Assembly (NCBI RefSeq): GCF_022788635.1
Contig: NZ_CP076024.1
Coordinates: 1,798,001 to 1,862,000 of the forward strand
Reading direction: 5' to 3'
Length of the DNA stretch: 64,000 nt
Source of the DNA: Methylobacter sp. S3L5C
GTDB lineage: Bacteria; Pseudomonadota; Gammaproteobacteria; Methylococcales; Methylomonadaceae
This document shows, piece after piece, positions 17,981 to 30,900 of this stretch. Positions within the stretch are counted from its first letter, which is position 1, and the number at the start of each line of letters is the position of its first letter. The notes below the pieces were generated by a model that ran no database searches, was not told where the DNA came from, and saw only the letters and a program-made list of their open reading frames with translations. The position numbers were made by a program, and so were the translations under genes.

Positions 17981-18095
17981 AAGTATAGTTTGTTGTAGGT
18001 TTGTAAAATGGCACAATCCAGCTACACGGATAAGGCCAAACCAGTTCAGTTTGATCGAGCTTTATCCGTGCTGTATTAGCTTGATGTCGTGGGAT

Positions 18096-19499
18096 TTATT
18101 TGGCATCTTTTGCAGTTAACTGCGCGAGTGGTTTATTGTTATATTCCCCGGTCAGTGTTTTGAGGAAAGCAACTATTTTTCCAATTTCATCGCTGGTAAA
18201 ATTCTTGTCGACTTGAACCTTACCCATAATCCGAACGGCATCGGCGAGGTTATCAACCGAACCATCGTGAAAATAAGGGTGAGTCAGTTCTATATTACGC
18301 AATAGGGGTACTTTGAAAAAATAGCGGTCTTTTTCCTGCTTGGTTACGTTGAAACGACCATTATCAACGTCTGTTAATTTACCTCCGCGCAGTTTGAAAT
18401 AATCTTGTTTGACACCCATTTTTTCGTAAGATAATCCACCGAGTACCGGGCCGAAGTGGCAGGAGGCGCAATTCGCTTTAAACAAGTTGTATCCAGCCTT
18501 TTCATCCTTTGTTAGAACGTCTTGTTTACCGCGCAGATACTCATCGAAACGGGCATTGGGCGTTATCAGTGATTGTTCAAAAACAGCAATCGCATCGGTC
18601 ACTGTCGTTTTAGTCAGACCTAGTGCCGGGTACAGTTTGCCAAAAGTATTTTGATAGTCACTGGCTTGCTTAAGTTTTTCGACAACGTTATCCCATTGCG
18701 CTCCCATTTCCATAGGATTGGCGACAGGACCTGCGGCTTGTTCCTGAAGGTCTTTGGCACGGCCATCCCAGAATTGAGCGATGTTGTACATTGCATTATA
18801 GACGGTCGGAGAATTGATTGGCCCCTGCTGCCCGCGAATGCCGGTGGACACTTTGGCCTGATCGGTGCCGCCCCGAGTTAAATCGTGGCAGGAAGCGCAA
18901 TTTAAAGTATCGTCTCCCGACAGCAGGCGATCGTGGAATAGTTTGTCACCTAGAGCGACTTTGTCCGGATTGAGGTCAACCTTTAATGGAATCGGTTGTA
19001 TGGGTTCGCCTTTTAGCGTTTTTGCAGAGTCAAGACTCCAGGGCGATTCTGCCCGCTCTTCGGAAATCCAGGTCAGGATGTTTGCTTTCTCATCATCGTT
19101 TAAATTGTCCGTCCAGTGCATTAGCAGAAATTGTGCGGGCGGCATGCTGCCGTTGTTAATAACCTTTTCCAATCTGGCTAGCATTAGCGGGGTAAAAGCT
19201 TCTGCACCGCTGTAAAGCTCTTTAGATAAAATCAGTCTAGCCCCTGCTTCTTCTATATCTTTTGCCATGAGTTGTTTGGCTATTGGCAGTTCTGAATAGA
19301 ACGGCAGTCGGGTCATGCCGGGTGAGTGACAATCCACACATTTATTCTGCAAAATTTGAGTAACTTTGATGAAGTTATCGGATTTTCCGGAAACAGGCAA
19401 AATGGGCTTATTTTTACCCGTCAAACCAACCAGGTTGGAAACGGGAAAAAATAAAACTACGGCCAGAAGTAATAGTAAAAATAAGGGTAATTTTTTCAT
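18096..19499 (-). CDS. Tri-heme cytochrome c peroxidase (YhjA/Ccp type)
   Basis: A 467-residue protein with an N-terminal hydrophobic anchor (residues about 4-27) and three c-type heme motifs: CVDCH at 54-58, CASCH at 201-205 and CASCH at 344-348. The last two belong to the classical MauG/CcpA di-heme peroxidase fold (NSPTVYNAMYNIAQFWDGRA, VPLLRNIELTHPYFHDGS). The first lies in an extra N-terminal heme domain. Length and layout match the E. coli YhjA-type peroxidase, which draws electrons from the quinol pool or small cytochromes to reduce hydrogen peroxide in the periplasm. Its neighbours, cytochrome bd and sulfide oxidation genes, fit low-oxygen respiration and oxidative defence. Monocistronic by spacing. 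Confidence 0.87.
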   Translation of the reverse strand: MKKLPLFLLLLLAVVLFFPVSNLVGLTGKNKPILPVSGKSDNFIKVTQILQNKCVDCHSPGMTRLPFYSELPIAKQLMAKDIEEAGARLILSKELYSGAEAFTPLMLARLEKVINNGSMPPAQFLLMHWTDNLNDDEKANILTWISEERAESPWSLDSAKTLKGEPIQPIPLKVDLNPDKVALGDKLFHDRLLSGDDTLNCASCHDLTRGGTDQAKVSTGIRGQQGPINSPTVYNAMYNIAQFWDGRAKDLQEQAAGPVANPMEMGAQWDNVVEKLKQASDYQNTFGKLYPALGLTKTTVTDAIAVFEQSLITPNARFDEYLRGKQDVLTKDEKAGYNLFKANCASCHFGPVLGGLSYEKMGVKQDYFKLRGGKLTDVDNGRFNVTKQEKDRYFFKVPLLRNIELTHPYFHDGSVDNLADAVRIMGKVQVDKNFTSDEIGKIVAFLKTLTGEYNNKPLAQLTAKDAK

Positions 19500-19640
19500 G
19501 TGTGCTTAAGATGTTTATTGGTTGGGAAAATGCGGCTTGCTCAAGAGCCATTACTATAGATTCGGTAACTCATGAAATACAAATGATTGTCTTAAAAAGC
19601 GACTGTTTATTGACAATACATTTACCTGTACTCGCCGGGC

Positions 19641-20075
19641 TTATTTTTTGTCTTTAAGGTCGTTGTCTTCAGGGCAGCCATAATTTTTGGCGGTGTAAGA
19701 CAAGATTAAAATGGCAATACTGAGCAGGGCAATGGCAACCGTGATGCTCAGTAGTAAATAAAGATGAAAACTATCAGCCACTTTTTGTACGTCAATAACC
19801 AAATGGCGTGATAATGCGGTAATGGCGATATAAATCAGAAACTGTACCGGTAGTCGACGGGTTTTAAAATAGGTACCGACCATCGCACCTAATTCAAGGT
19901 AAATAAATAATAACAGTATTTCTTCAAGGCTGGCATGTCCTGATTTCATCATCGCGATATAGTCATAAACAGCAGATCAGACTATCGTGGCACCTATGCC
20001 AAATAATGCGAGATAGTGAAAGCTATCGACCAGGATGTCGCCAATTTTATGAATAATAACCGTCTTATTGTGCAT
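19641..20075 (-). pseudogene. psiE: psiE with an in-frame TGA at codon 33
   Basis: Starting at the ATG at 20075, the frame reads MHNKTVIIHKIGDILVDSFH, then YLALFGIGATIV, a TGA at 19979-19977, and continues SAVYDYIAMMKSGHASLEEIL to a stop at 19641. The whole 144-codon frame matches the PsiE family of small four-helix membrane proteins, in which Trp is expected at the TGA (TGG to TGA). The part after the stop (from 19952) could be made only by re-initiation. It follows the cydAB-cydX operon on the same strand after 51 bases. Either a recent nonsense mutation, a sequencing error, or read-through; the surrounding codons are undamaged. Confidence 0.8.
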
Positions 20076-20126
20076 GGGTTACCTTACGCTTTAATCTGAC
20101 TGGTTTTGTAAGATTGTCGGTAGCGG

Positions 20127-20708
20127 TTATGCCAGTTTTTGCAGACTACTTTTTGCGGTTGCAATGTTGATTAATTTGTTGACTTCATGGGCGGTATTAT
20201 CTGATGCATTCGACAATGCAGAAAATTCAGCAACGCCGGTAGTTACTACAACAGCAAGATCTTTATGCGCTTTGATATGTTCGATGATTTCATTTTTTAC
20301 TTGTGCAGCAATTTCCTCGGCTTTTTTCAAGGGCGAACCCGGCATGGCAATAAGAAAATCCTGATTATCCATTCTCGCTGCAATATCAACACCCAGTCTG
20401 ATATTTTCTTTAAAGCAGTCGACGACGCTACGTAACAGAGCCTCCATTTCATAAGCCGGTAAAGGGTTACCGGATTTAAAATCTTTTAAGCTGATAAAAA
20501 GAATGGAAAAAGGAAAGCCGTTACGTTTGGAGTTATCCACTTTTTCCTGTAGGCGGCCCAACATGGTTTCTTTGGTGATTAATTGTGTTATCGGATCTAA
20601 ATCAATATGTTCTTTATCCCAGGTTTCTTGGGCTTCCAGTCTAAGTACGTTGATAATGCCTAATGAGCAGGCCAGTAATAATCCAAGTATCCAGGTAAAA
20701 TACCACAT
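20127..20708 (-). CDS. cydX: CydX fused to a degenerate GGDEF domain
   Basis: A 193-residue protein. Residues 1-27 are a complete CydX, the small third subunit of cytochrome bd: MWYFTWILGLLLACSLGIIN, then Glu at position 25 as in E. coli CydX. Residues about 37-190 are a GGDEF-type fold: LDPITQLITKETMLGRL matches the DPLTGLPNR opening, FSILFISLKDFK matches the next strand, and RMDNQDFLIAM at 112-122 stands where RFGGDEF belongs. The catalytic signature is therefore DNQDF, so diguanylate cyclase activity is unlikely. The gene starts ten bases after cydB. The helix should sit in the oxidase with the domain facing the cytoplasm, where it might bind a nucleotide or partner and tune the oxidase. 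That role is inference; the fusion itself is visible. Confidence 0.85.
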   Translation of the reverse strand: MWYFTWILGLLLACSLGIINVLRLEAQETWDKEHIDLDPITQLITKETMLGRLQEKVDNSKRNGFPFSILFISLKDFKSGNPLPAYEMEALLRSVVDCFKENIRLGVDIAARMDNQDFLIAMPGSPLKKAEEIAAQVKNEIIEHIKAHKDLAVVVTTGVAEFSALSNASDNTAHEVNKLINIATAKSSLQKLA

Positions 20709-20717
20709 AATAATCTC

Positions 20718-21857
20718 CTAATAAGCGGTATGGTCGTTCTGATGAATGTGTTCTACCGTTATTTTGCCGCGCAACACACGGAACACCCAGGTGGTGTAAG
20801 TAATAACAATAGGCAAAAGAATAACTGTCACCCAGAACATGATTTTCAAGGTGCCAAAGCTGGAACTGGCATCCCATACGGTTAAAGAGCTGTTGATGGC
20901 AGAACTTGACGGTATCAGAAAAGGAAACATGGACACGCCGGCGGTTAAAATAACCGCAGCCAAGGTTAATGAGCTGGTTATAAATGCCAAACCCGGACGT
21001 CTGATTGTTGATAGCGCCATCGTTAATGCTCCGGCACAAAATGCCAGTCCTGGAACCGCCCACAATACCGGATAATGCGCATAGTTGGCTAGCCATAAGC
21101 CCGTTTCTTTATTGACTATTTTTGCCAGCGGGTTAGACGGTGCATTAGGCAAAACTTCACTGCTGATCTGGTAACCATCAATATTGGCAATCCAGATGCC
21201 CGCCAAAGCAAAAATGGCCAGTGTTATTATGGCAAAAATAGTGACAACTTTTTTACAACGGCGATTAATATCGCCGGTGGTCTTGATTTGCAAAAATACT
21301 GCCCCGTGCATAACTATCATGGACAAGCTAACAAGCCCTGCCGCCAAGGCAAACGGATTTAATAAATCCCAGAATGAACCAGTGTAAAAAATACGCATAT
21401 CGTTGTCAAAATAAAACGGTACACCTTTTAATAAATTGCCAAAGGCCACGCCAAAAATTAACGCAGGGACAAAGCCGCCGACAAACAAGGCGATATCCCA
21501 GTTGTTACGCCATTTTTGACTGGGTAATTTACTCCGGTAATCAAAGCCTATCGGACGCATAAACAACGCAAACAAGGTTAACAGCAAGGCAAAATAAAAT
21601 CCTGAAAATGCCACTGAATAGGCCACAGGCCAAGCGGCAAACAACGAAGCGCCGGCAGTGATAAACCAAACCTGATTACCTTCCCAGGTAGCGCCGATGG
21701 AGTTAATAATCACGCGGCGTTCGGTATCATTTTTACCTAAAAAAGGTAACAAGATGGCGACGCCCAAGTCAAAACCGCCGGTAATGGCAAAGCCGATCAA
21801 TAAGACACCTAAAAATCCCCACCAGATCAAGCGCATGGTTTCATAATCAAACATCAT
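20718..21857 (-). CDS. cydB: Cytochrome bd quinol oxidase subunit II
   Basis: A 379-residue integral membrane protein, the normal length for CydB. It begins MMFDYETMRLIWWGFLGVLL and contains GFDLGVAILLPFLGKND, RRVIINSIGATWEGNQVWFI and the closing VFRVLRGKI pattern, all typical of the family. It has about eight to nine membrane helices and supports heme assembly in the high-affinity oxidase. Its ATG overlaps the cydA stop (CCATGATG, with AGGAG upstream), so the two are translationally coupled. cydX::GGDEF follows. Confidence 0.96.
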   Translation of the reverse strand: MMFDYETMRLIWWGFLGVLLIGFAITGGFDLGVAILLPFLGKNDTERRVIINSIGATWEGNQVWFITAGASLFAAWPVAYSVAFSGFYFALLLTLFALFMRPIGFDYRSKLPSQKWRNNWDIALFVGGFVPALIFGVAFGNLLKGVPFYFDNDMRIFYTGSFWDLLNPFALAAGLVSLSMIVMHGAVFLQIKTTGDINRRCKKVVTIFAIITLAIFALAGIWIANIDGYQISSEVLPNAPSNPLAKIVNKETGLWLANYAHYPVLWAVPGLAFCAGALTMALSTIRRPGLAFITSSLTLAAVILTAGVSMFPFLIPSSSAINSSLTVWDASSSFGTLKIMFWVTVILLPIVITYTTWVFRVLRGKITVEHIHQNDHTAY

Positions 21858-23416
21858 GGTGTGACTCCTGAAGCAATTTCAAAATGGTAACGGCCTTTAT
21901 GCAGGCTGCTGGGGCCTAACTTGATAAATTTAAGCATCAAGAACATTTCGATGACCAAAAATACCGTATATAAACCGATATAACCAGCCAGACTGAGATA
22001 TAAATCCAGTTCGGTTAAGGAGGATGCACTTAAAAAAGTCGGTAAAATTTCTGCAATCGACCAGGGTTGTCGGCCAAACTCGGCGACAAACCAACCCATT
22101 TCGCAAGCAATCCACGGTAAAGGCATCATTAAAAGACTGGCGCGTAATAACCAGGTTTGCCGGCATTTTCGAATGGAACTGGCAATAACGGCCATAACAA
22201 ATATCGCCAGCATAATAAAGCCGCAAACGACCATGATCCGAAAAGTCCAGAATAATGGTACGACTCTGGGCAGCGAATATTGCGCCGCCGACTCTATTTG
22301 TGCCTCAGTGGCATCGACAATTTTGTCCGTATAACGTTTGAGTAACAAGCCATAGCCTAAGTCTTGTTTATAACGGTCAAATTCTGCCAGGGTAATTGCA
22401 TTCCGGTTACCGGATCTTAATGTTTGCAACGCGGCATAAGCTTTAATGCCCTCACGTACCCGTAAACGATTTTTTTCCAGAATTTCCGATAATCCGGTGA
22501 TGGGTTCATCAATAGAACGTGTACCGATCAAGCCAAGCACCCAAGGAATTTTTACCGCATAACGTGTTTCCATGGTTTCCTGATCAGGAATACCGATTAC
22601 GGTAAATGCTGCCGGCGGTAGTTCGGTGTGCCATTCGGCTTCAATCGCAGCGAGTTTGGCTTTTTGTACCTCGCCATCGGTATAGCCACTTTCATCACCT
22701 AAAATAATGACTGACAATACGGCGGCCAGACCAAAACCTGCCGCAATGGTATAAGAGCGTTGTGCAAAAGCGGCATCACGACCTTTTAACATGTAATAAG
22801 CACTGATGCCGAGTACAAAAGCAGAGGCAGTTGTGTAACCTGCAGCAACGGTATGAACAAATTTAACCTGGGCAGACGGATTAAATAACAGCGAGCCAAA
22901 GCTGGAAAGTTCCATGCGCATGGTTTCATAATTAAAGTCGGCGCCGACCGGATTTTGCATCCAGCCATTAGCGACCAGAATCCATAATGCGGATAAATTG
23001 GAGCCTAAAGCCACCAGCCAGGTCACTGTCAAATGTTGGCCTTTACCGAGTTTATCCCAGCCAAAGAAAAACAGGCCGACAAAAGTCGATTCCAGAAAAA
23101 ATGCCATCAAGCCTTCAATGGCCAGCGGCGCACCAAAAACATCACCGACATAATGTGAAAAATAAGACCAGTTCATGCCGAATTGAAATTCCATAGTCAA
23201 ACCGGTCGTCACACCCAGCGCAAAATTTATCCCGAATAATTTCCCCCAAAACTGGGTCATATCCTTGTAAATTTCTTTGCCGGTCATGACATAGGTTGAT
23301 TCCATAATCGCCAGTAAAAACGATAAGCCCAAGGTCAAAGGAACAAACAAAAAATGGTATAAAGAGGTTACTGCAAATTGCCAGCGAGATAAATCAACGA
23401 CGGCTTCTGAAATCAT
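21854..23416 (-). CDS. cydA: Cytochrome bd quinol oxidase subunit I (long Q-loop)
   Basis: A 520-residue protein from the ATG at 23416, which follows AGGGGAAG; the frame is open to 23479 but the extra residues are not family-like. It begins MISEAVVDLSRWQFAVTSLYH with the heme b595 histidine at residue 21, and carries GMNWSYFSHYVGDVFGAPLA, FVHTVAAGYTTASAFV and LGDESGY. The Q-loop is of the long E. coli type (GTRSIDEPITGLSEILEKNR region). With CydB and CydX it oxidises quinol and reduces oxygen to water with high affinity and is resistant to sulfide, which fits the sulfide oxidase encoded divergently. First gene of a minus-strand operon. Confidence 0.96.
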   Translation of the reverse strand: MISEAVVDLSRWQFAVTSLYHFLFVPLTLGLSFLLAIMESTYVMTGKEIYKDMTQFWGKLFGINFALGVTTGLTMEFQFGMNWSYFSHYVGDVFGAPLAIEGLMAFFLESTFVGLFFFGWDKLGKGQHLTVTWLVALGSNLSALWILVANGWMQNPVGADFNYETMRMELSSFGSLLFNPSAQVKFVHTVAAGYTTASAFVLGISAYYMLKGRDAAFAQRSYTIAAGFGLAAVLSVIILGDESGYTDGEVQKAKLAAIEAEWHTELPPAAFTVIGIPDQETMETRYAVKIPWVLGLIGTRSIDEPITGLSEILEKNRLRVREGIKAYAALQTLRSGNRNAITLAEFDRYKQDLGYGLLLKRYTDKIVDATEAQIESAAQYSLPRVVPLFWTFRIMVVCGFIMLAIFVMAVIASSIRKCRQTWLLRASLLMMPLPWIACEMGWFVAEFGRQPWSIAEILPTFLSASSLTELDLYLSLAGYIGLYTVFLVIEMFLMLKFIKLGPSSLHKGRYHFEIASGVTP

Positions 23417-23782
23417 AAACTTCCCCTGTGAGTTGCCGTTCTGTAAGCCAGAACCTGAGATAAACAACAGTAAATACAAAGTAAATCAACACGTTTTGTG
23501 TGTAAATTAAATGTCTTGTTAAAAGCATACTTTTTGTCCGGGTTTACCCTGACTAATTAGTATTGTATGCTAGGGTTAATTTATGTTATTGTCTAGCAAT
23601 ATTAACAAATACTAATATATATTTTTGCTTTCCCGGTGCCTTTATCTGATCAAGTGCAGGTTAATGATTTTTTCGTTGTTCAGGGTATGTGCCGATTCAC
23701 TTTAATGGGGATGTCAATTGGCAGCACGTCAATTGAAAAAATGTAACGCACGTAATAATAACTATTAATAAGGAGAATAATC
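23417..23782. promoter_or_regulatory. Divergent promoter region between cydA and sqr
   Basis: About 366 bases lie between two divergent starts and must carry both promoters. ACTAATTAGT at 23552-23561 is a perfect ten-base palindrome, enclosed by GCATAC at 23525-23530 and GTATGC at 23565-23570, and by TTTACCCT and AGGGTTAA. The nested symmetry suggests a regulator site shared by both genes. I found no good FNR box. AAGGAG just before 23783 is the sqr ribosome-binding site. Confidence 0.45.
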
Positions 23783-25063
23783 ATGGCTCGTATTGTAATT
23801 TTAGGTGCCGGTATTGGTGGCGTACCAATGGCTTATGAAATGAAGGAAACCGTAGGAAAAAAACACGATGTTATTGTAATTTCCGACTCACCTACTTTTC
23901 ATTTTGTACCTTCAAATCCTTGGGTTCCACCACGATGGCGAACACCTGAAGACTTAAAGATTGAGTTGGCGCCGGTGATGAAAAAGAAAGGTATTGAATT
24001 TATTCAAAAAGCGGCAGCAAAAGTTGATCCGGTTAATAATCAGGTTCAGTTGGTTGATGGTTCAGCCGTTGCCTACGATTTTTTGATTATAGCGACAGGG
24101 CCGCGACTGGCCTTTGATGAAATTCCGGGCTTGGGGCCGGACGGCTTTACTTCATCCGTCTGTCATGTCGATCATGCCGCTGTGGCTGCAGAAGATTGGG
24201 ACAGATTTATGGAAAATCCCGGCCCCATTGTTATCGGTGCAGTACAGGGCGCTTCCTGCTATGGTCCTGCGTATGAATACTTAATGATTCTTGAAACGGA
24301 GTTACGTAATAAAAAAGTACGCGATAAAGTACCGATGACTTTTGTTACTTCAGAACCTTATATCGGCCATTTAGGTTTAGGGGGTGTTGGCGATACTAAA
24401 GGTTTGATGGAAAGTGCCTTGCGTGAGAAGTCCATTAAATGGATAACGAATGCCAAGGTCGATAAAGTTGAATCCGGCATGATGTTTGTAACTGAAGTTG
24501 ATGAAGACGGCAACGACAAGAAAAAACATGAGCTGCCTTTTAAGCATTCAATGATGTTGCCCGCCTTTACCGGCGTTGATGCGGTGCGTCATGTCGGTGT
24601 TGAAGGATTGGTCAATCCGCGCGGCTTTGTGTTGGTGGATGAGCACCAGCGTAACGCAACATTTAAAAATATCTATTCTGTTGGTGTTTGTATTGCCATT
24701 CCGCCCATAGAAAAAACACCCGTACCGGTGGGGGTGCCAAAAACCGGTTATATGATTGAATCAATGGTGACTACCACCGCACATAATATTGCCGATGAAC
24801 TGGCCGGTAAAGAACCAACACATATAGCGACTTGGAATGCTTTGTGTCTGGCTGATTTTGGTGATTCCGGAGTGGCTTTTCTGGCTATGCCCCAAATTCC
24901 TCCGCGTAACACAACCTGGTCGGCAGAAGGCAGATGGGTGCATCTGGCTAAAATCGGTTTCGAGAAGTACTTCATGCGTAAAATACGCAAAGGTATTAGT
25001 GAGCCTTATTATGAAAAGTTAATGCTCAAATTAATGGGCGTAGTACGCATAAAAGGTGAGTAA
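23783..25063 (+). CDS. sqr: Sulfide:quinone oxidoreductase
   Basis: A 426-residue FAD protein with the dinucleotide motif [17 protein letters not shown] at its N-terminus and the second motif [17 protein letters not shown] near residue 100. Cysteines at 127 (SSVCHVDH), 159 (GASCYGP) and 303 (VGVCIAIPP) match the three redox cysteines of sulfide:quinone reductases. The [15 protein letters not shown] segment and the C-terminal amphipathic region with basic residues fit membrane attachment. It oxidises sulfide to polysulfide and passes electrons to quinone, which cytochrome bd next door can reoxidise. AAGGAG precedes the ATG. The exact SQR type is not certain. Confidence 0.9.
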
Positions 25064-25064
25064 G

Positions 25065-25265
25065 ATGAGTATTGATCGAATCGTGTTTGCCGTTGCCGGC
25101 AGTTTTATCCTGATCAGTTTGTTGCTGGCGCATTATCATTCTGATTTGTGGCTATGGTTTACGGCTTTTGTTGGCGCTAATTTGTTGCAATCAGCCTTTA
25201 CGGGGTTTTGTCCGATGGCAATGCTACTTAAAAAGTTGGGTGTTAAACCGGGTTGTGCTTTTTGA
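25065..25265 (+). CDS. Small DUF2892-type membrane protein
   Basis: A 66-residue protein with two hydrophobic helices ([17 protein letters not shown] and [18 protein letters not shown]) and the [16 protein letters not shown] ending typical of DUF2892/YgaP-type rhodanese-associated membrane proteins. I use the ATG at 25065, one base after the sqr stop, with AGGTGAG in front; a GTG at 25056 would overlap sqr. Such proteins occur with sulfide oxidation genes, and the two cysteines could take part in sulfur handling. It is co-transcribed with sqr. Confidence 0.85.
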
Positions 25266-25305
25266 TTACAGTGTTGGCAGACAGTCTTAAATAAAGTACT
25301 GTAAA

Positions 25306-25380
25306 TTTTCACCACGAAGGCACGAAGAGCACGAAGAGCACGAAGAGCACGAAGAAAAATATAACTCTTCGTGGTGAAAA
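25306..25380. repeat. Four 9-bp tandem repeats inside a perfect 14-bp inverted repeat
   Basis: GCACGAAGA is repeated exactly four times at 25320-25355. It is flanked by TTTTCACCACGAAG (25306-25319) and its perfect reverse complement at 25367-25380. The element lies between the sqr pair and the efflux operon and could fold into a long hairpin that works as a terminator. Variable-number 9-mers of this kind occur as dispersed elements in many bacterial genomes. A partial relative, TTCGTGGTGAAA, occurs near 53474. Confidence 0.85.
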
Positions 25381-25444
25381 ATGTTGGAAGACTTCCGTCT
25401 ATTTCTTAACAGGTATTGTTAGACGTGACACTTACGTGAAGATT

Positions 25445-26845
25445 ATGCTTAAAATAATAAAAAAGAGCTTGGCATTAAGTCTGTTACCGGTACTGTTGCT
25501 ATCAGGCTTGTCGTCAGTCGTAGCTGATCCTGTTACTAAAAGTGCTGTCGATAAAGCAGTGCCGGAAAAATTAACCAGCCAATCTTATACGCTGGATCAG
25601 GCTATTGACTATGCAATCGCCAACAATCCTGACTTGCAAATCGCCATTGAACGCATCAATCAGGCTCAAGCTCAATTAGGTGTGGCGCTGTCTGCTTTTT
25701 ATCCGCAAGTAACGGCCAGAGTGGGTTATGAAACGTCCAACAATCCGGCTCAGGTCTTTGCAATGATTGTCTCGCAAAGGGATTTTGAGCCCAATAACAT
25801 CAATAATATTAATAATCCGGGCTACCGACAAAATTTTCGTCCTGAAATCATAGGAAAGCTGTCACTGTTTCGTGGTGGTCAGGATTATCAAAACAGTAAA
25901 GCTGCGGAGCTAGGCATAGACGCGGCCGAGTTTGAGCGCTCAACCGTTCATAATGCCTTGATTGAAGCGGTAACGGCTTCTTATTATGCTTATTTGGCCG
26001 CTATAGAAGCGCAAAAAGTCGCCCAGGATTCTATTTCCGCAATCACCAGTGAGTTAAATCAAACAAAACGACAGTACGAAGCCGGAACCGTACTTAAATC
26101 AGATGTATTGTCACTGGAAGTAAAATTGGCTGAAGTAGAGGATGCCAAAATCAGGGCGACCAACGGTATTGAATTATCCAACGCCGGTATCGCCAACTTG
26201 CTGGGTCTGTCCAGTTATCAAACCTTTACGGTGGCACCGTCAGCTTCGCTGTTAACCAAGCCCAAGTTGACTGGATCGTTTAATAATTTGCTTGAACTTG
26301 CCATGACTCAGCGTCCTGAAGTAAAAGCTGCCGCCAAACAGGTAGAAATTAGTTTACGCAAGTTGAAAAGTGAGCAGGGTGCTTATTTACCCAAGGCTGA
26401 TGCTTATGTCAGTTACGGGCAAAATAGCCAGTCGCCCGGATTTTCCGGTAACAAAGATAATGTTACCGCTGGCGTTACTGTCGAAATGGATTTATTTTCA
26501 GGGTTTAGTACCCAACAACGGGTTAGTGCGGCAGAGCGAAAAGCCGCCGAAGTTCGGGAAATAGAAAGAAAAACCAGGCTGGGTATTGAGCAGGAAGTAA
26601 AAATTGCCTATTTAAAATTGGAGGAAGGTTTGGCGCGTTTGCGTGTTACCGAAGTCTCGGTGCTCGCCGCCGACGAGGCCTTACGGCTGGTAAATGAAGA
26701 AAGACGCGCTGAAGTGGTTACGGTCACCCGTTATATCGAATCGGAAGTTGCCAGAAATAAAGCGCAATCGAGTACTATCGCAGCGCATTACGATGCCCTG
26801 AGTGCAGAAGCGGCATTAAAAAAAGCGGTCGGCGACTGGAAATAA
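25445..26845 (+). CDS. TolC-family outer-membrane efflux protein
   Basis: A 466-residue protein with a signal peptide (LALSLLPVLLLSGLSSVVA) and two outer-membrane efflux protein repeats. Evidence includes YTLDQAIDYAIANNPDLQIA at the start of the mature protein, long amphipathic coiled-coil helices rich in Ala, Glu and Gln, and internal duplication typical of TolC/NodT. It forms the outer-membrane channel of a tripartite pump with the adaptor and permease encoded next. I prefer the ATG at 25445; a GTG at 25436 is in frame. Neither has a strong ribosome-binding site. Confidence 0.9.
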   Translation: MLKIIKKSLALSLLPVLLLSGLSSVVADPVTKSAVDKAVPEKLTSQSYTLDQAIDYAIANNPDLQIAIERINQAQAQLGVALSAFYPQVTARVGYETSNNPAQVFAMIVSQRDFEPNNINNINNPGYRQNFRPEIIGKLSLFRGGQDYQNSKAAELGIDAAEFERSTVHNALIEAVTASYYAYLAAIEAQKVAQDSISAITSELNQTKRQYEAGTVLKSDVLSLEVKLAEVEDAKIRATNGIELSNAGIANLLGLSSYQTFTVAPSASLLTKPKLTGSFNNLLELAMTQRPEVKAAAKQVEISLRKLKSEQGAYLPKADAYVSYGQNSQSPGFSGNKDNVTAGVTVEMDLFSGFSTQQRVSAAERKAAEVREIERKTRLGIEQEVKIAYLKLEEGLARLRVTEVSVLAADEALRLVNEERRAEVVTVTRYIESEVARNKAQSSTIAAHYDALSAEAALKKAVGDWK

Positions 26846-26894
26846 CAGCGATTTTTCGTAGCCCCAATGATTTATCCAAAATACAGGAGTTCTC

Positions 26895-27980
26895 ATGTCA
26901 CAACCTGAACGCAAAAACCGTAACAAAATTATCGCTATTGCCATCGCCGTTTTAGTCTTGATTTTGTTGCTGCTTTACATGCAAGGGACTTTTGTCAGTA
27001 AAGTATCGCCCGGCTTAAGCCCACTGGTCAACGATGCAAATACGCCCAAAAGCGAAACTGCTGTGGTTGAAAAAAAACAGGTTGACGATATTCTTAACTG
27101 GCCTGGCACGGTAAGATCAAGAATCGTGGCTAATATTGCTCCCAAAATGACAGCTCGCATTATCGATATTAAGGTTCATGCCAGCGATAAAGTCAAAAAA
27201 GGCGAGGTAATTGCCATTCTGGATGAGCGTGAACTCAGAGCTCAGGAAAATATCGCCCTTGCCGCGCTTGCCGGTGCAACTGCGCAAGCCGGTCGTGCCA
27301 AAGCAGACGAACAACGTACCAAAAGCTTGTACGTTAAGGAGGCGGCAACCCGCGAAAATTTTGATGCCGTCGTCGCCCGTGCAAAAGAGGCGCAAGCGGC
27401 GGTCAGTCAGGCAACCAGTACGGTGAGTGAAATCAGAACCCATTTGGCGGATACGCTATTACTGGCACCATTTGACGGTACTGTCGTCAAGCGCCTTAAA
27501 GAGCCCGGTGACATGGGCTTGCCCGGTGTGCCGGTGGTCACTTTGCAGATACCACAAGGCTTAAGGCTTGAGGCCGACGTACCCGGCACTTGTGCCGGAC
27601 GTTATCGCACGGGCATGGAGGTTAGGGTGCGCATTGATACCCTGGGCCAAACGGTTACGGCTCAAGTCGATGAGATCAGTCCTGATGTCGACTCGCAAAC
27701 CCGCACTCAATTGATTAAAATTGCCTTGCCGGCAATGGCAGGTTTGCAAGCCGGATCTTTTGGTTGGCTGGAACAAGCTTGCGGCCAACATGAAGCCTTA
27801 TTGATTCCTGCCAGTGCAGTGCAGCATATCGGTCAACTGGAAGTGGTTACGGTCTGGTCAGAAGGCCGGCAGCTTATGCGCCATATCAGAACAGCTAAAA
27901 CTTTTGGCAACAGGATTGAAGTTATTTCCGGTTTACACGCCGGTGAAATCGTCATCGTTAATCCACAGCAGGTACCATAA
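26895..27980 (+). CDS. RND efflux periplasmic adaptor (HlyD/MFP family)
   Basis: A 361-residue membrane-fusion protein. It has an N-terminal membrane anchor (IIAIAIAVLVLILLLLYM, residues about 10-28), a lipoyl/barrel-sandwich half (IDIKVHASDKVKKGEVIAILDERELR), an alpha hairpin and the second lipoyl half (DTLLLAPFDGTVVKRLKEPGDM). The C-terminal beta-barrel part ends IEVISGLHAGEIVIVNPQQV. It links the inner-membrane pump to the outer channel. An AGGAG site precedes the ATG. Its TAA overlaps the permease start (TAATG), showing coupling. Confidence 0.92.
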   Translation: MSQPERKNRNKIIAIAIAVLVLILLLLYMQGTFVSKVSPGLSPLVNDANTPKSETAVVEKKQVDDILNWPGTVRSRIVANIAPKMTARIIDIKVHASDKVKKGEVIAILDERELRAQENIALAALAGATAQAGRAKADEQRTKSLYVKEAATRENFDAVVARAKEAQAAVSQATSTVSEIRTHLADTLLLAPFDGTVVKRLKEPGDMGLPGVPVVTLQIPQGLRLEADVPGTCAGRYRTGMEVRVRIDTLGQTVTAQVDEISPDVDSQTRTQLIKIALPAMAGLQAGSFGWLEQACGQHEALLIPASAVQHIGQLEVVTVWSEGRQLMRHIRTAKTFGNRIEVISGLHAGEIVIVNPQQVP

Positions 27981-30900
27981 TGGACGAGCTGCAAAATCAA
28001 AAACCGAAACGTGGCTTGACGACCAAGATTGTCGAAATTTTTACCACCTCACAGTTATCCATTTTATTTCTGATTATTTCGCTGTTGGCTGGAGCTGCAG
28101 CACTGGTTCTTACACCACGTGAAGAAGATCCACAGATTGTCGTGCCGGTTATGGATGTGCTGATTGAATATCCGGGGGCTTCCAGCGAAGAAGTTGAAAA
28201 GCTGGTGTCGACACCGCTGGAGGTTTTGCTCAAACAAATTGAAGGCGTGGAATACGTCTATTCCATCTCCAAGCCCGGTGCGGCGATGGTGACCGTGCGT
28301 TATTTTGTCGGCCAGGATTTTGAAGACAGTCTGGTTAAAACCTGGGACCGGCTTATGTCCAACCAGAACCTTATTCCGCCCGGGGTTACGCACTGGAAAG
28401 TAAGTCCTGTAGAAATTGATAACGTGCCTATCGTATTACTGACACTTTCTGCACAGAATAATAATTATGATTCTATGGCGTTACGCCGCATTGCCGATGA
28501 GCTGATTATTTCTCTGAGAAGTGTGGGCGATGTGGGTAAAAGTTGGGTGGTTGGCGGCGAACAACGGCAAGTATCCATTTATGCCAACCCGGCCAGTCTG
28601 GCGGCGCATGGCGTAACGCTGATTGAAGTGACTCAGGCGCTGGCCAATGCCAATGTTAATTTACAAGCGGGTAGCTTTGAAAGTAATAACCGTGAAATTC
28701 TACTGGAAGCCGGCCCGCATTTTAGTTCATCACCAGAAGTCGGCGCGACCGTTATAAAAAGTGTTGCCGGACGTCCTGTTTATCTGCGGGATGTGGCGCG
28801 TATTGAAGATGGCCCGGCAGATGTCGACCATTACACGCGTATCGGCTTTGGCCCTGCGGTCGATGAAATGCCTACGATTGGCAAAGCTACCGGTAATCCG
28901 CCGCAAGTCGGGCAAGAACGGCCAATGGTCACTATTGCCGTTGCCAAACGTAAAGGCAGTAATGCCGTTCATGTCGCCGAAGCCGTTATTGCCAACGCAG
29001 AAAAGATGCGCGGTACGCTGATCCCCGAAGATGTTTTGTTAACCGTTACCCGTGATTATGGCGAAACCGCTAACGATAAAGTGAACGAACTGGTTAAACA
29101 TTTAAGCTTTGCCATCGTCATTATCGTGGTGTTACTGGCTTTTTCGTTGGGGCTGAAAGAGTCATTTATTGTGTCCATTGCCGTACCGATGACCTTGGCG
29201 CTGACTTTGTTACTGGATTATATTTCCGGTTACACCATTAATCGCGTTACTCTGTTTGCCTTGATTCTATCGTTGGGCTTATTGGTGGATGATCCGATAG
29301 TGGATGTTGAAAATATCCACAGGCACTATAAATTACGCAAAGAATCACCGCTGGAAGCGCTATTGACGGCGGTCGATGAAGTCAGGCCGCCGACTATTCT
29401 GGCGACTTTTACGGTGATTGTGTCATTTCTGCCAATGTTTTATATCACAGGCATGATGGGCCCCTATATGGCACCCATGGCTTTTAACGTGCCGATCGCC
29501 ATGATTGTCTCGTTAATTGTGGCTTTTACCGTAACTCCCTGGGCCAGTTTCAAATTGCTGCAAAGCGAATATCACAAGCATAGCGACGAATTACCGGAAG
29601 TACTCGAAAAAACCTTTATCTATCAGGCCTATCGCGCGGCACTCGGTCCGCTGTTGGCGACCCCGGGGCGTGCCAAATTATTTTTACTGATTGTGCTGAT
29701 AGCCTTTTTAGGCTCAACCATGCTGGCTATTACTCGTGCCGTGCCGCTTAAACTATTGCCTTTTGATAATAAAAACGAATTGCAAATCATGATTGATATG
29801 CCGCGTGGCTCAACCCTGGAAAAAACCGATGAAGTTGTGCGTGCCTTGGGTAGCTATTTGGCGACAGTCAATGAAGTGACTGATTATCAAACCTATACCG
29901 GCCTGGCTGCACCGATGGATTTTAACGGCATGGTTCGCCATTATTATCTACGCAGTGGTGGTTATGTGGGTGAAGTCAGAATCAATTTATTACCTAAAGA
30001 TAAACGGGAACAGCAGTCGCATGAAATCGCTTTACGTATTCGCTCTGACATAGAAAAAATCGGTAAGCAATACGGCGCCAACCTTAAAATTGTCGAAATT
30101 CCACCCGGGCCACCGGTACTTTCCGGTTTGGTTGCTGAAATCTATGGCCCGCCTGAAGCGACTATTGACGGTTTGATAGCGGTATCCAAGCGCGTTAGAG
30201 CCGATATGGAAAAAACCGAAGGCGTAGTTGATGTGGATGATTTTTCCGAAGCGCCGCATGATAAAGTGCATTTTCAGTTAAATCGGGAAAAAGCGGCCTT
30301 GTCGGGTGTCAGCGTTGCGCAAGTTGCCGAAACATTGCGTATCGCTTTGGCAGGTCAAACCTTGGGTATCGTACATGCGGACAGGGAGCGCCAGCCGCTG
30401 GAAATTAACCTGCAATTACCCCGTGCACTACGTTCGTCTATTGCCGATTTATTGGCATTACGGGTAAAAACAGATCAAGGTGAGTTAATACCCTTAAGTG
30501 AGCTAGGCACTGCCACTATGGAAAATGAAGATCAGCCTATTTATCATAAGAATCTGCAACGGGTCAGTTACGTCATTGCCGAAATGGCAGGACGCAGTCC
30601 GGTAGAAGCGGTTTTTGATCTTAATGATACGTTTGCCGAACATCCCTTGCTGCAAGGTTATCGCGCCGAACTAGCGGGGGAGGGCGAATGGAAAATTACC
30701 GTTGATGTCTTTCGTGACCTTGGACTTGCTTTTGCAGCCGCGTTAGTGATGATTTATGTTTTATTGGTCGGGCAAACCGGATCATTGACCGTGCCGCTGG
30801 TTATGATGATCGCTATTCCCTTAACGGTGATTGGCATCATGCCGGGATTTTGGTTGCTTAACCAGTTTATGGCGACGCCTGTTGCAGGTTACCCCAATCC

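Follow-up and report, generated by a model that had tools for sequence, protein, structure and literature searches.

The window analysed here, a stretch of 64,000 nt from Methylobacter sp. S3L5C, contains a cytochrome bd operon in which the gene following cydB encodes a CydX segment and a GGDEF-like domain in one open reading frame (Table 1). The full 27-position model of Pfam YbgT_YccB (PF08173) matched residues 1–27 at 55 bits (cut-off 26.2), and the protein scored 50.7 bits (cut-off 31.6) with NCBIfam TIGR02106, 'cytochrome bd-I oxidase subunit CydX', bearing out the claim of an earlier sequence-only reading that these residues are a CydX that includes Glu25. The same reading had described the remainder as a GGDEF fold with DNQDF for its signature, in agreement with the match of PF00990 (GGDEF) to residues 37–163 (46.9 bits, cut-off 23.8) and with the fold matches below. 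It had also placed the gene in a cytochrome bd operon, as confirmed by cydB and cydA directly upstream, with a cydB–fusion gap of 9 nt; it gave no strand for the frame, which lies on the minus strand. The ATG at 23416 is the likely start of cydA and our choice, the listed ORF starting at 23479. Both the CydX and the GGDEF families were matched at E ≤ 0.01 by 43/43 members of alignment A1, which comprises 43 fusions and leaves out L050 (164 aa) and the broken L074. Stand-alone CydX typically measures about 30–50 aa, although the family models set no such size; with its 193 aa the window protein is therefore a variant of CydX and not a typical one. Judged from its sequence, the window gene is predicted to encode CydX for a quinol oxidase of bd-I type, extended on the cytoplasmic side by a domain of GGDEF fold that would be enzymatically dead.

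Table 1 Features of the fusion gene and its cydABX operon, in window positions
Feature	Position	Strand	Basis or remark
CydX–GGDEF fusion ORF	20127-20708	-	193 aa, ATG start (ORF list)
CydX segment, residues 1–27 (transmembrane helix, Glu25)	20628..20708	-	PF08173 and TIGR02106
Linker, residues 28–37	20598..20627	-	Alignment; model helix 2–33
GGDEF-like domain, residues 38–193 and stop codon	20127..20597	-	PF00990, residues 37–163; fold matches
Degenerate signature DNQDF, residues 114–118	20355..20369	-	GG[DE]EF in 0/54 distinct fusions
R104-x-x-x-D108	20385..20399	-	Both residues invariant, 54/54; RxxD inhibitory site is one residue shorter
cydB	20718..21857	-	TIGR00203, 486.3 bits
cydA, long Q-loop bd-I type	21854..23416	-	PF01654; E. 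coli CydA (6rko_A) matched at 791.8 bits

The genome carries a second copy of the fusion (G000:C1:3143742-3144323; 97% protein identity), so the joined frame is no assembly slip confined to the window. An assembly error joining two genes, which the sequence-only reading had allowed for, is ruled out by this copy together with the fusions found in relatives. The two copies sit in a duplicated segment (window about 18095-28395 and G000:C1:3141710-3152000, the latter read as L111) of at least 10 kb and ~96% DNA identity, a length that is a lower bound as the right end lies beyond the compared stretch. Besides the cydX fusion, cydB and cydA, it contains psiE, genes for a di-haem peroxidase and a Pyr_redox_2 protein, and efflux-type genes. 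The PsiE-family gene that follows the fusion (window 19641-20075, minus strand) is interrupted in the window copy by a single in-frame stop codon; its counterpart in the second copy (L111:7257-7691) is an open frame and matches PF06146. The Pyr_redox_2 oxidoreductase gene (window 23783-25063, plus strand) is divergent from cydA and may encode a sulfide:quinone oxidoreductase that feeds the oxidase. In a comparison of the two copies the fusion gene has dN 0.0145 and dS 0.080 (dN/dS about 0.18), and dN/dS is 0.06 for cydB and 0.04 for cydA.

The fusion, scored as a match running from residue 1 into the domain, was found in 35 of the 101 genomes searched, our own included. In an organism-named scan, 44 of the best 80 loci were fused (L031–L074), 43 of them intact and L074 broken. 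Fused loci, where named, are nearly all labelled Methylococcales, with record titles of Methylobacter (including M. tundripaludum SV96), Methylomonas, Methylococcaceae or Methylococcales; L068 is from a Gammaproteobacteria MAG, and L065 is a short contig labelled Epsilonproteobacteria, which may be a binning fault. The loci read hold 65 intact fusions, 54 of them distinct after removal of exact or contained duplicates. CydB lies directly upstream in 64 of the 65 intact loci, the miss being L065, which starts near a contig end; the gap between cydB and the fusion is 8–15 nt in 63 of the 64 and 65 nt in one. In L074 the fusion gene (L074:5142-6130) is broken, its frame stopping at 75 aa with further domain pieces downstream at two places, perhaps through mis-assembly of two copies.

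In a midpoint-rooted CydB tree, built from 117 of 132 sequences after leaving out 3 under 300 aa and 12 duplicates and trimming one over-long sequence, the 52 rows with a fusion, among them the broken L074, made up one side of one branch (SH-aLRT 82), and the fused rows plus the plain-CydX Thiotrichaceae L101 formed a group with support 99. A single origin of the fusion would be the simplest reading of this tree, with modest support. Other Methylococcales have a plain CydX of 32–52 aa and a more distant CydB. The sequence-only reading had also allowed that relatives might keep cydX and the domain as separate genes. When the domain profile was run against 69 loci with a CydX of <100 aa (536 kb), 68 gave no match at E ≤ 1 and the sole match was L074, itself a broken fusion gene, ruling out separate genes within these loci, whose flank lengths differ and are in part <2 kb on a side, such that a distant separate gene would escape. 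In wider sampling, CydX was matched in 62/369 genomes of the class and 100/398 genomes of the phylum, our own included in both. The 17 rows whose open frames reach about 100 aa or longer (G233, G271, G264, G372, G373, G111 and G378 in the class sample and ten more in the phylum sample) were all plain CydX or CydX-like, 36–56 aa in length (38 aa in G378, counted from the match start), and the rows with shorter frames leave no room for a GGDEF-size domain. A Pararhodospirillum locus (L085), with a tblastn match reaching residue 109, was rejected as a fusion: its CydX ends at a stop after 35 aa, and the sequence beyond is unrelated.

The GG[DE]EF signature was found in none of the 54 distinct fusions, and its columns are variable. 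The column of the metal-binding Asp in the first strand (column 73, placed through the DosC alignment) holds Ser in 43 and Asn in 11 of the 54, and RxxD is missing in 53, that of the window included, being intact in L120 alone. These losses rule out an active diguanylate cyclase, and the domain is accordingly predicted to be none. R104 and D108, spaced RxxxD, are invariant in all 54 and are among the conserved columns outside the catalytic site, examples of which are K56, PFS 66–68, E87, R104, D108 and R112. Columns 81 and 89, which we take to be guanine contacts by PleD numbering transferred with the DosC alignment, carry for the most part Asn/His and Asp/Glu; as these contacts are partly kept, the domain may still bind a nucleotide.

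The AlphaFold model consists of one helix, residues 2–33, followed by a GGDEF fold (mean pLDDT 76.5, pTM 0.62), with pLDDT dropping to 64–71 around residues 21–40. Foldseek returned 108 PDB matches at E ≤ 0.001, and the 50 matches listed are GGDEF-containing entries, by title or as known proteins. In the VIA comparison the top rows were tied near Z 21, the first being 3i5c, a fusion of the GCN4 leucine zipper with the WspR GGDEF domain. With the helix included, the match to 3i5c had Z 21.6, rmsd 9.7 and 182 aligned residues, and the match of the domain alone to 3i5b had Z 21.6, rmsd 2.1 and 155 aligned residues; given this difference, the helix angle of the model is tentative. By sequence profile and predicted model, the domain is of the GGDEF fold.

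Pairwise dN/dS across domain residues 35–187 had a median of 0.18 and a maximum of 0.37 in 132 non-independent pairs with dS < 1.2, out of the 903 pairs of A1. These values lie well below 1: the domain is kept by purifying selection despite its lost catalytic site, under a weaker constraint than cydA and cydB. The mean frequency of the top residue is 0.97 for residues 1–28, 0.68 for residues 29–37 and 0.65 for residues 38–187. The spacing from E25 to D38 is 14 residues in all 54 distinct fusions; core segments of the domain likewise show no length changes in this set, so the constant linker length is weak evidence for rigidity.

Published work on the E. coli enzyme bears on what such a domain could do. 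Passages of a 2026 cryo-EM study describe a bd-I dimer with twofold turnover, the interface of which is formed by CydX with a leucine zipper; Trp2 of CydX rotates upon dimerisation and anchors the Q-loop through Asp239, Thr10 of CydX contacts a second quinone site, and dimerisation as a means of regulation is put forward as the authors' hypothesis (PMC13189123). The C terminus of CydX is exposed to the cytoplasm in a published structure, according to a passage of PMC6853902, which disagrees with an older prediction of a periplasmic C terminus (passage in PMC5322542). CydX is associated with the long Q-loop type of CydA in a passage of PMC4325964. The window CydA aligns with E. coli CydA without gaps through the Q-loop region, with a small gap later, and keeps its Ser233, Asp239, Tyr243 and Arg298. 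Trp2 of CydX is invariant in A1, and the position of E. coli Thr10 is Leu in the window.

By analogy with the published structures, it is plausible that the domain tunes the oxidase. As our best explanation, held tentatively and with somewhat less than even confidence, we propose that the dead GGDEF domain biases oxidase dimerisation, or where the CydX helix and Q-loop lie, and hence turnover, either constitutively or under the control of a ligand or partner. The CydX helix would pack against CydA at the interface used for dimerisation of bd-I protomers in E. coli, and would probably continue as one helix into the domain, like the stalk helix of dimeric diguanylate cyclases. The GGDEF-like domain would then project into the cytoplasm at the dimer axis, in the manner of paired GGDEF domains on a coiled-coil stalk. 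Such a pair of domains could shift the monomer–dimer equilibrium, or move the CydX helix and with it the Q-loop, and would change turnover in either way; the effect might be constitutive, or governed from the cytoplasm by a ligand or partner that is not c-di-GMP. We infer that the domain stabilises or gates the oxidase dimer, which would entail that the domain dimerises, that dimerisation changes activity and, for a governed effect, that something is sensed. This proposal is supported by the spread of the fusion over 35 of 101 genomes and its conserved place after cydB, purifying selection on the domain, the constant linker, the model helix and the match to the zipper–WspR fusion 3i5c, the kept CydA residues and Trp2, the published C-terminal location and dimer interface of CydX, the harmlessness of a C-terminal tag on E. 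coli CydX (PMC6005532), and by the two genomes described below that keep the fusion without another detected GGDEF. It is weakened by the lower constraint on the domain than on the oxidase in both dN/dS and top-residue frequency, by the low pLDDT near residues 21–40, the replacement of Thr10 by Leu, the broken L074 and the older periplasmic prediction.

A c-di-GMP or GTP signal, as suggested by the sequence-only reading, would make the domain a receptor on the oxidase whose nucleotide binding alters oxidase activity. The GGDEF fold, found by both Foldseek and VIA, the invariant R104 and D108, the character of columns 81 and 89 and the intact RxxD of L120 are in line with such a receptor, as is the presence of other GGDEF proteins in 65 of the 67 genomes scanned, where at least 3 GGDEF matches were found with the fusion included (range 3 to 59). 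The 67 comprised 35 fusion carriers from the 101-genome search and 15 more established by sequence, as well as 11 judged by open frame alone and 6 counted solely because their genus includes fusion carriers. Against it stand the Ser or Asn in the metal-Asp column, the variable signature and the missing RxxD in 53/54. Moreover, in two methanotroph drafts, G008 (99% complete) and G014 (84%), the single GGDEF match at E ≤ 1 was the fusion itself; neither a canonical GGDEF at E ≤ 1 nor an EAL over the cut-off was found in them, each having one EAL match below the cut-off and one PilZ match. The two drafts belong to a single genus and may reflect one evolutionary event, and a draft assembly does not prove absence. 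Even so, retention of the fusion as the sole detected GGDEF speaks against c-di-GMP as the ligand for which the domain is kept. The proposed nucleotide signal is thereby weakened by the loss of the metal Asp and RxxD and by these two genomes, the partly kept guanine-contact columns leaving some room for nucleotide binding, and we consider the receptor improbable. Protein sensing or scaffolding, which the sequence-only reading also raised, may still apply.

The main rival to the dimer proposal is partner docking, in which the domain serves as a docking or assembly platform that binds an assembly factor, a quinol-feeding dehydrogenase or a regulator without setting dimerisation; the two may also be combined. 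A domain that is non-catalytic yet selected would suit this role, and the conserved K56, PFS 66–68, E87, R104, D108 and R112 could form a partner surface. No constant neighbour gene was found around the 43 fused loci, where a PsiE-type gene lies downstream in 15/43 and a Pyr_redox_2-type gene upstream in 20/43 (labels taken from the window copies); this counts against docking as a weak test, and we judge docking rather unlikely. If, instead, the domain were a passenger or stability tag left from one fusion event and tolerated by the oxidase, its lower conservation than that of CydX, the weaker constraint on the fusion gene than on cydA and cydB, and the broken L074 would follow, and a passage of PMC6005532 reports that a C-terminal SPA tag on E. 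coli CydX was without effect. Yet dN/dS is well below 1 in 132/132 pairs used, the open frame is kept in 65 loci, and fold residues are kept while the catalytic site is gone, which makes a mere passenger distinctly improbable. A post-translational cut that frees CydX and a soluble GGDEF-like protein with a separate role would fit the greater variation of residues 29–37 than of residues 1–28, but the linker is constant in length in 54/54, the model helix runs unbroken through residue 33 and no relative with the two parts encoded apart was found among the 69 short-CydX loci; we regard such a cut as barely credible.

The novelty is one of domain architecture and of where this architecture occurs, on a terminal oxidase. 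Titles, abstract openings and passages of open-licence papers on CydX, cytochrome bd and GGDEF contain no description of a CydX–GGDEF fusion, and novelty is judged on this literature; domain-architecture lists at InterPro or NCBI may already hold the fusion. The main text of PMC4325964 does not use 'fusion', 'fused' or 'GGDEF', and passages of the 2025 paper on the genus Methylobacter (PMC12810054) speak of cydAB(X), and a text search of that paper gave no hit for 'cydX', 'diguanylate' or 'c-di-GMP'. Those passages name cytochrome bd as a high-affinity oxidase of most Methylobacter genomes examined, and its control therefore bears on methane oxidation at low oxygen. In this group of methane-eating bacteria the low-oxygen respiratory enzyme may have a built-in regulatory part that faces the cell interior. 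Passages of PMC13189123 propose that dimerisation may act as a regulatory switch of bd oxidases, and the cytoplasmic domain that these methanotrophs carry on the interface-forming subunit makes this proposal testable. The domain is also a possible case of a GGDEF fold that has outlived c-di-GMP signalling. That a covalently attached dead GGDEF module sets the oligomeric state, and so the turnover, of the oxidase in answer to a cytoplasmic signal other than c-di-GMP is, in our estimate, unlikely; if true, respiration would be controlled post-translationally and directly at the terminal oxidase.

Compared with known systems, the window protein is closest in its first part to E. coli CydX (YbgT; structure 6rko and the dimer of PMC13189123): residues 1–30 align without gaps and the gene likewise directly follows cydB, in keeping with the score of the window CydA against E. 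coli CydA and its four kept quinol or dimer residues. E. coli CydX, however, ends at residue 37, whereas the window protein, besides the change at Thr10, adds about 155 residues with a GGDEF fold. The plain CydX proteins of other Methylococcales (for example L148, L150 and L163) are of the same family and occupy the same place after cydB, but lack an extra domain, and their CydB falls on other branches of the tree. The GGDEF domains of the diguanylate cyclases WspR, DgcB, DosC and PleD share the fold (VIA Z 20–21.6) and also stand behind a helix; unlike them, the fusion domain is without GG[DE]EF and the metal Asp, has lost RxxD in nearly every member, and has an oxidase subunit for its helix. 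The non-catalytic GGDEF domains of FimX and LapD take part in c-di-GMP signalling and have an EAL domain next to them. Their folds (3hva and 6pwk in the Foldseek listing) are like that of the fusion domain, but the fusion has no EAL domain and persists in genomes where no other GGDEF was detected. Last, the ammonium transporter–GGDEF protein (PDB 8qj3; E 2.1e-9 to the fusion-domain profile) is a membrane transport protein with a GGDEF domain. Fusions of this kind are known as active cyclases that report transport and sit on a transporter, whereas the domain described here sits on an oxidase subunit.
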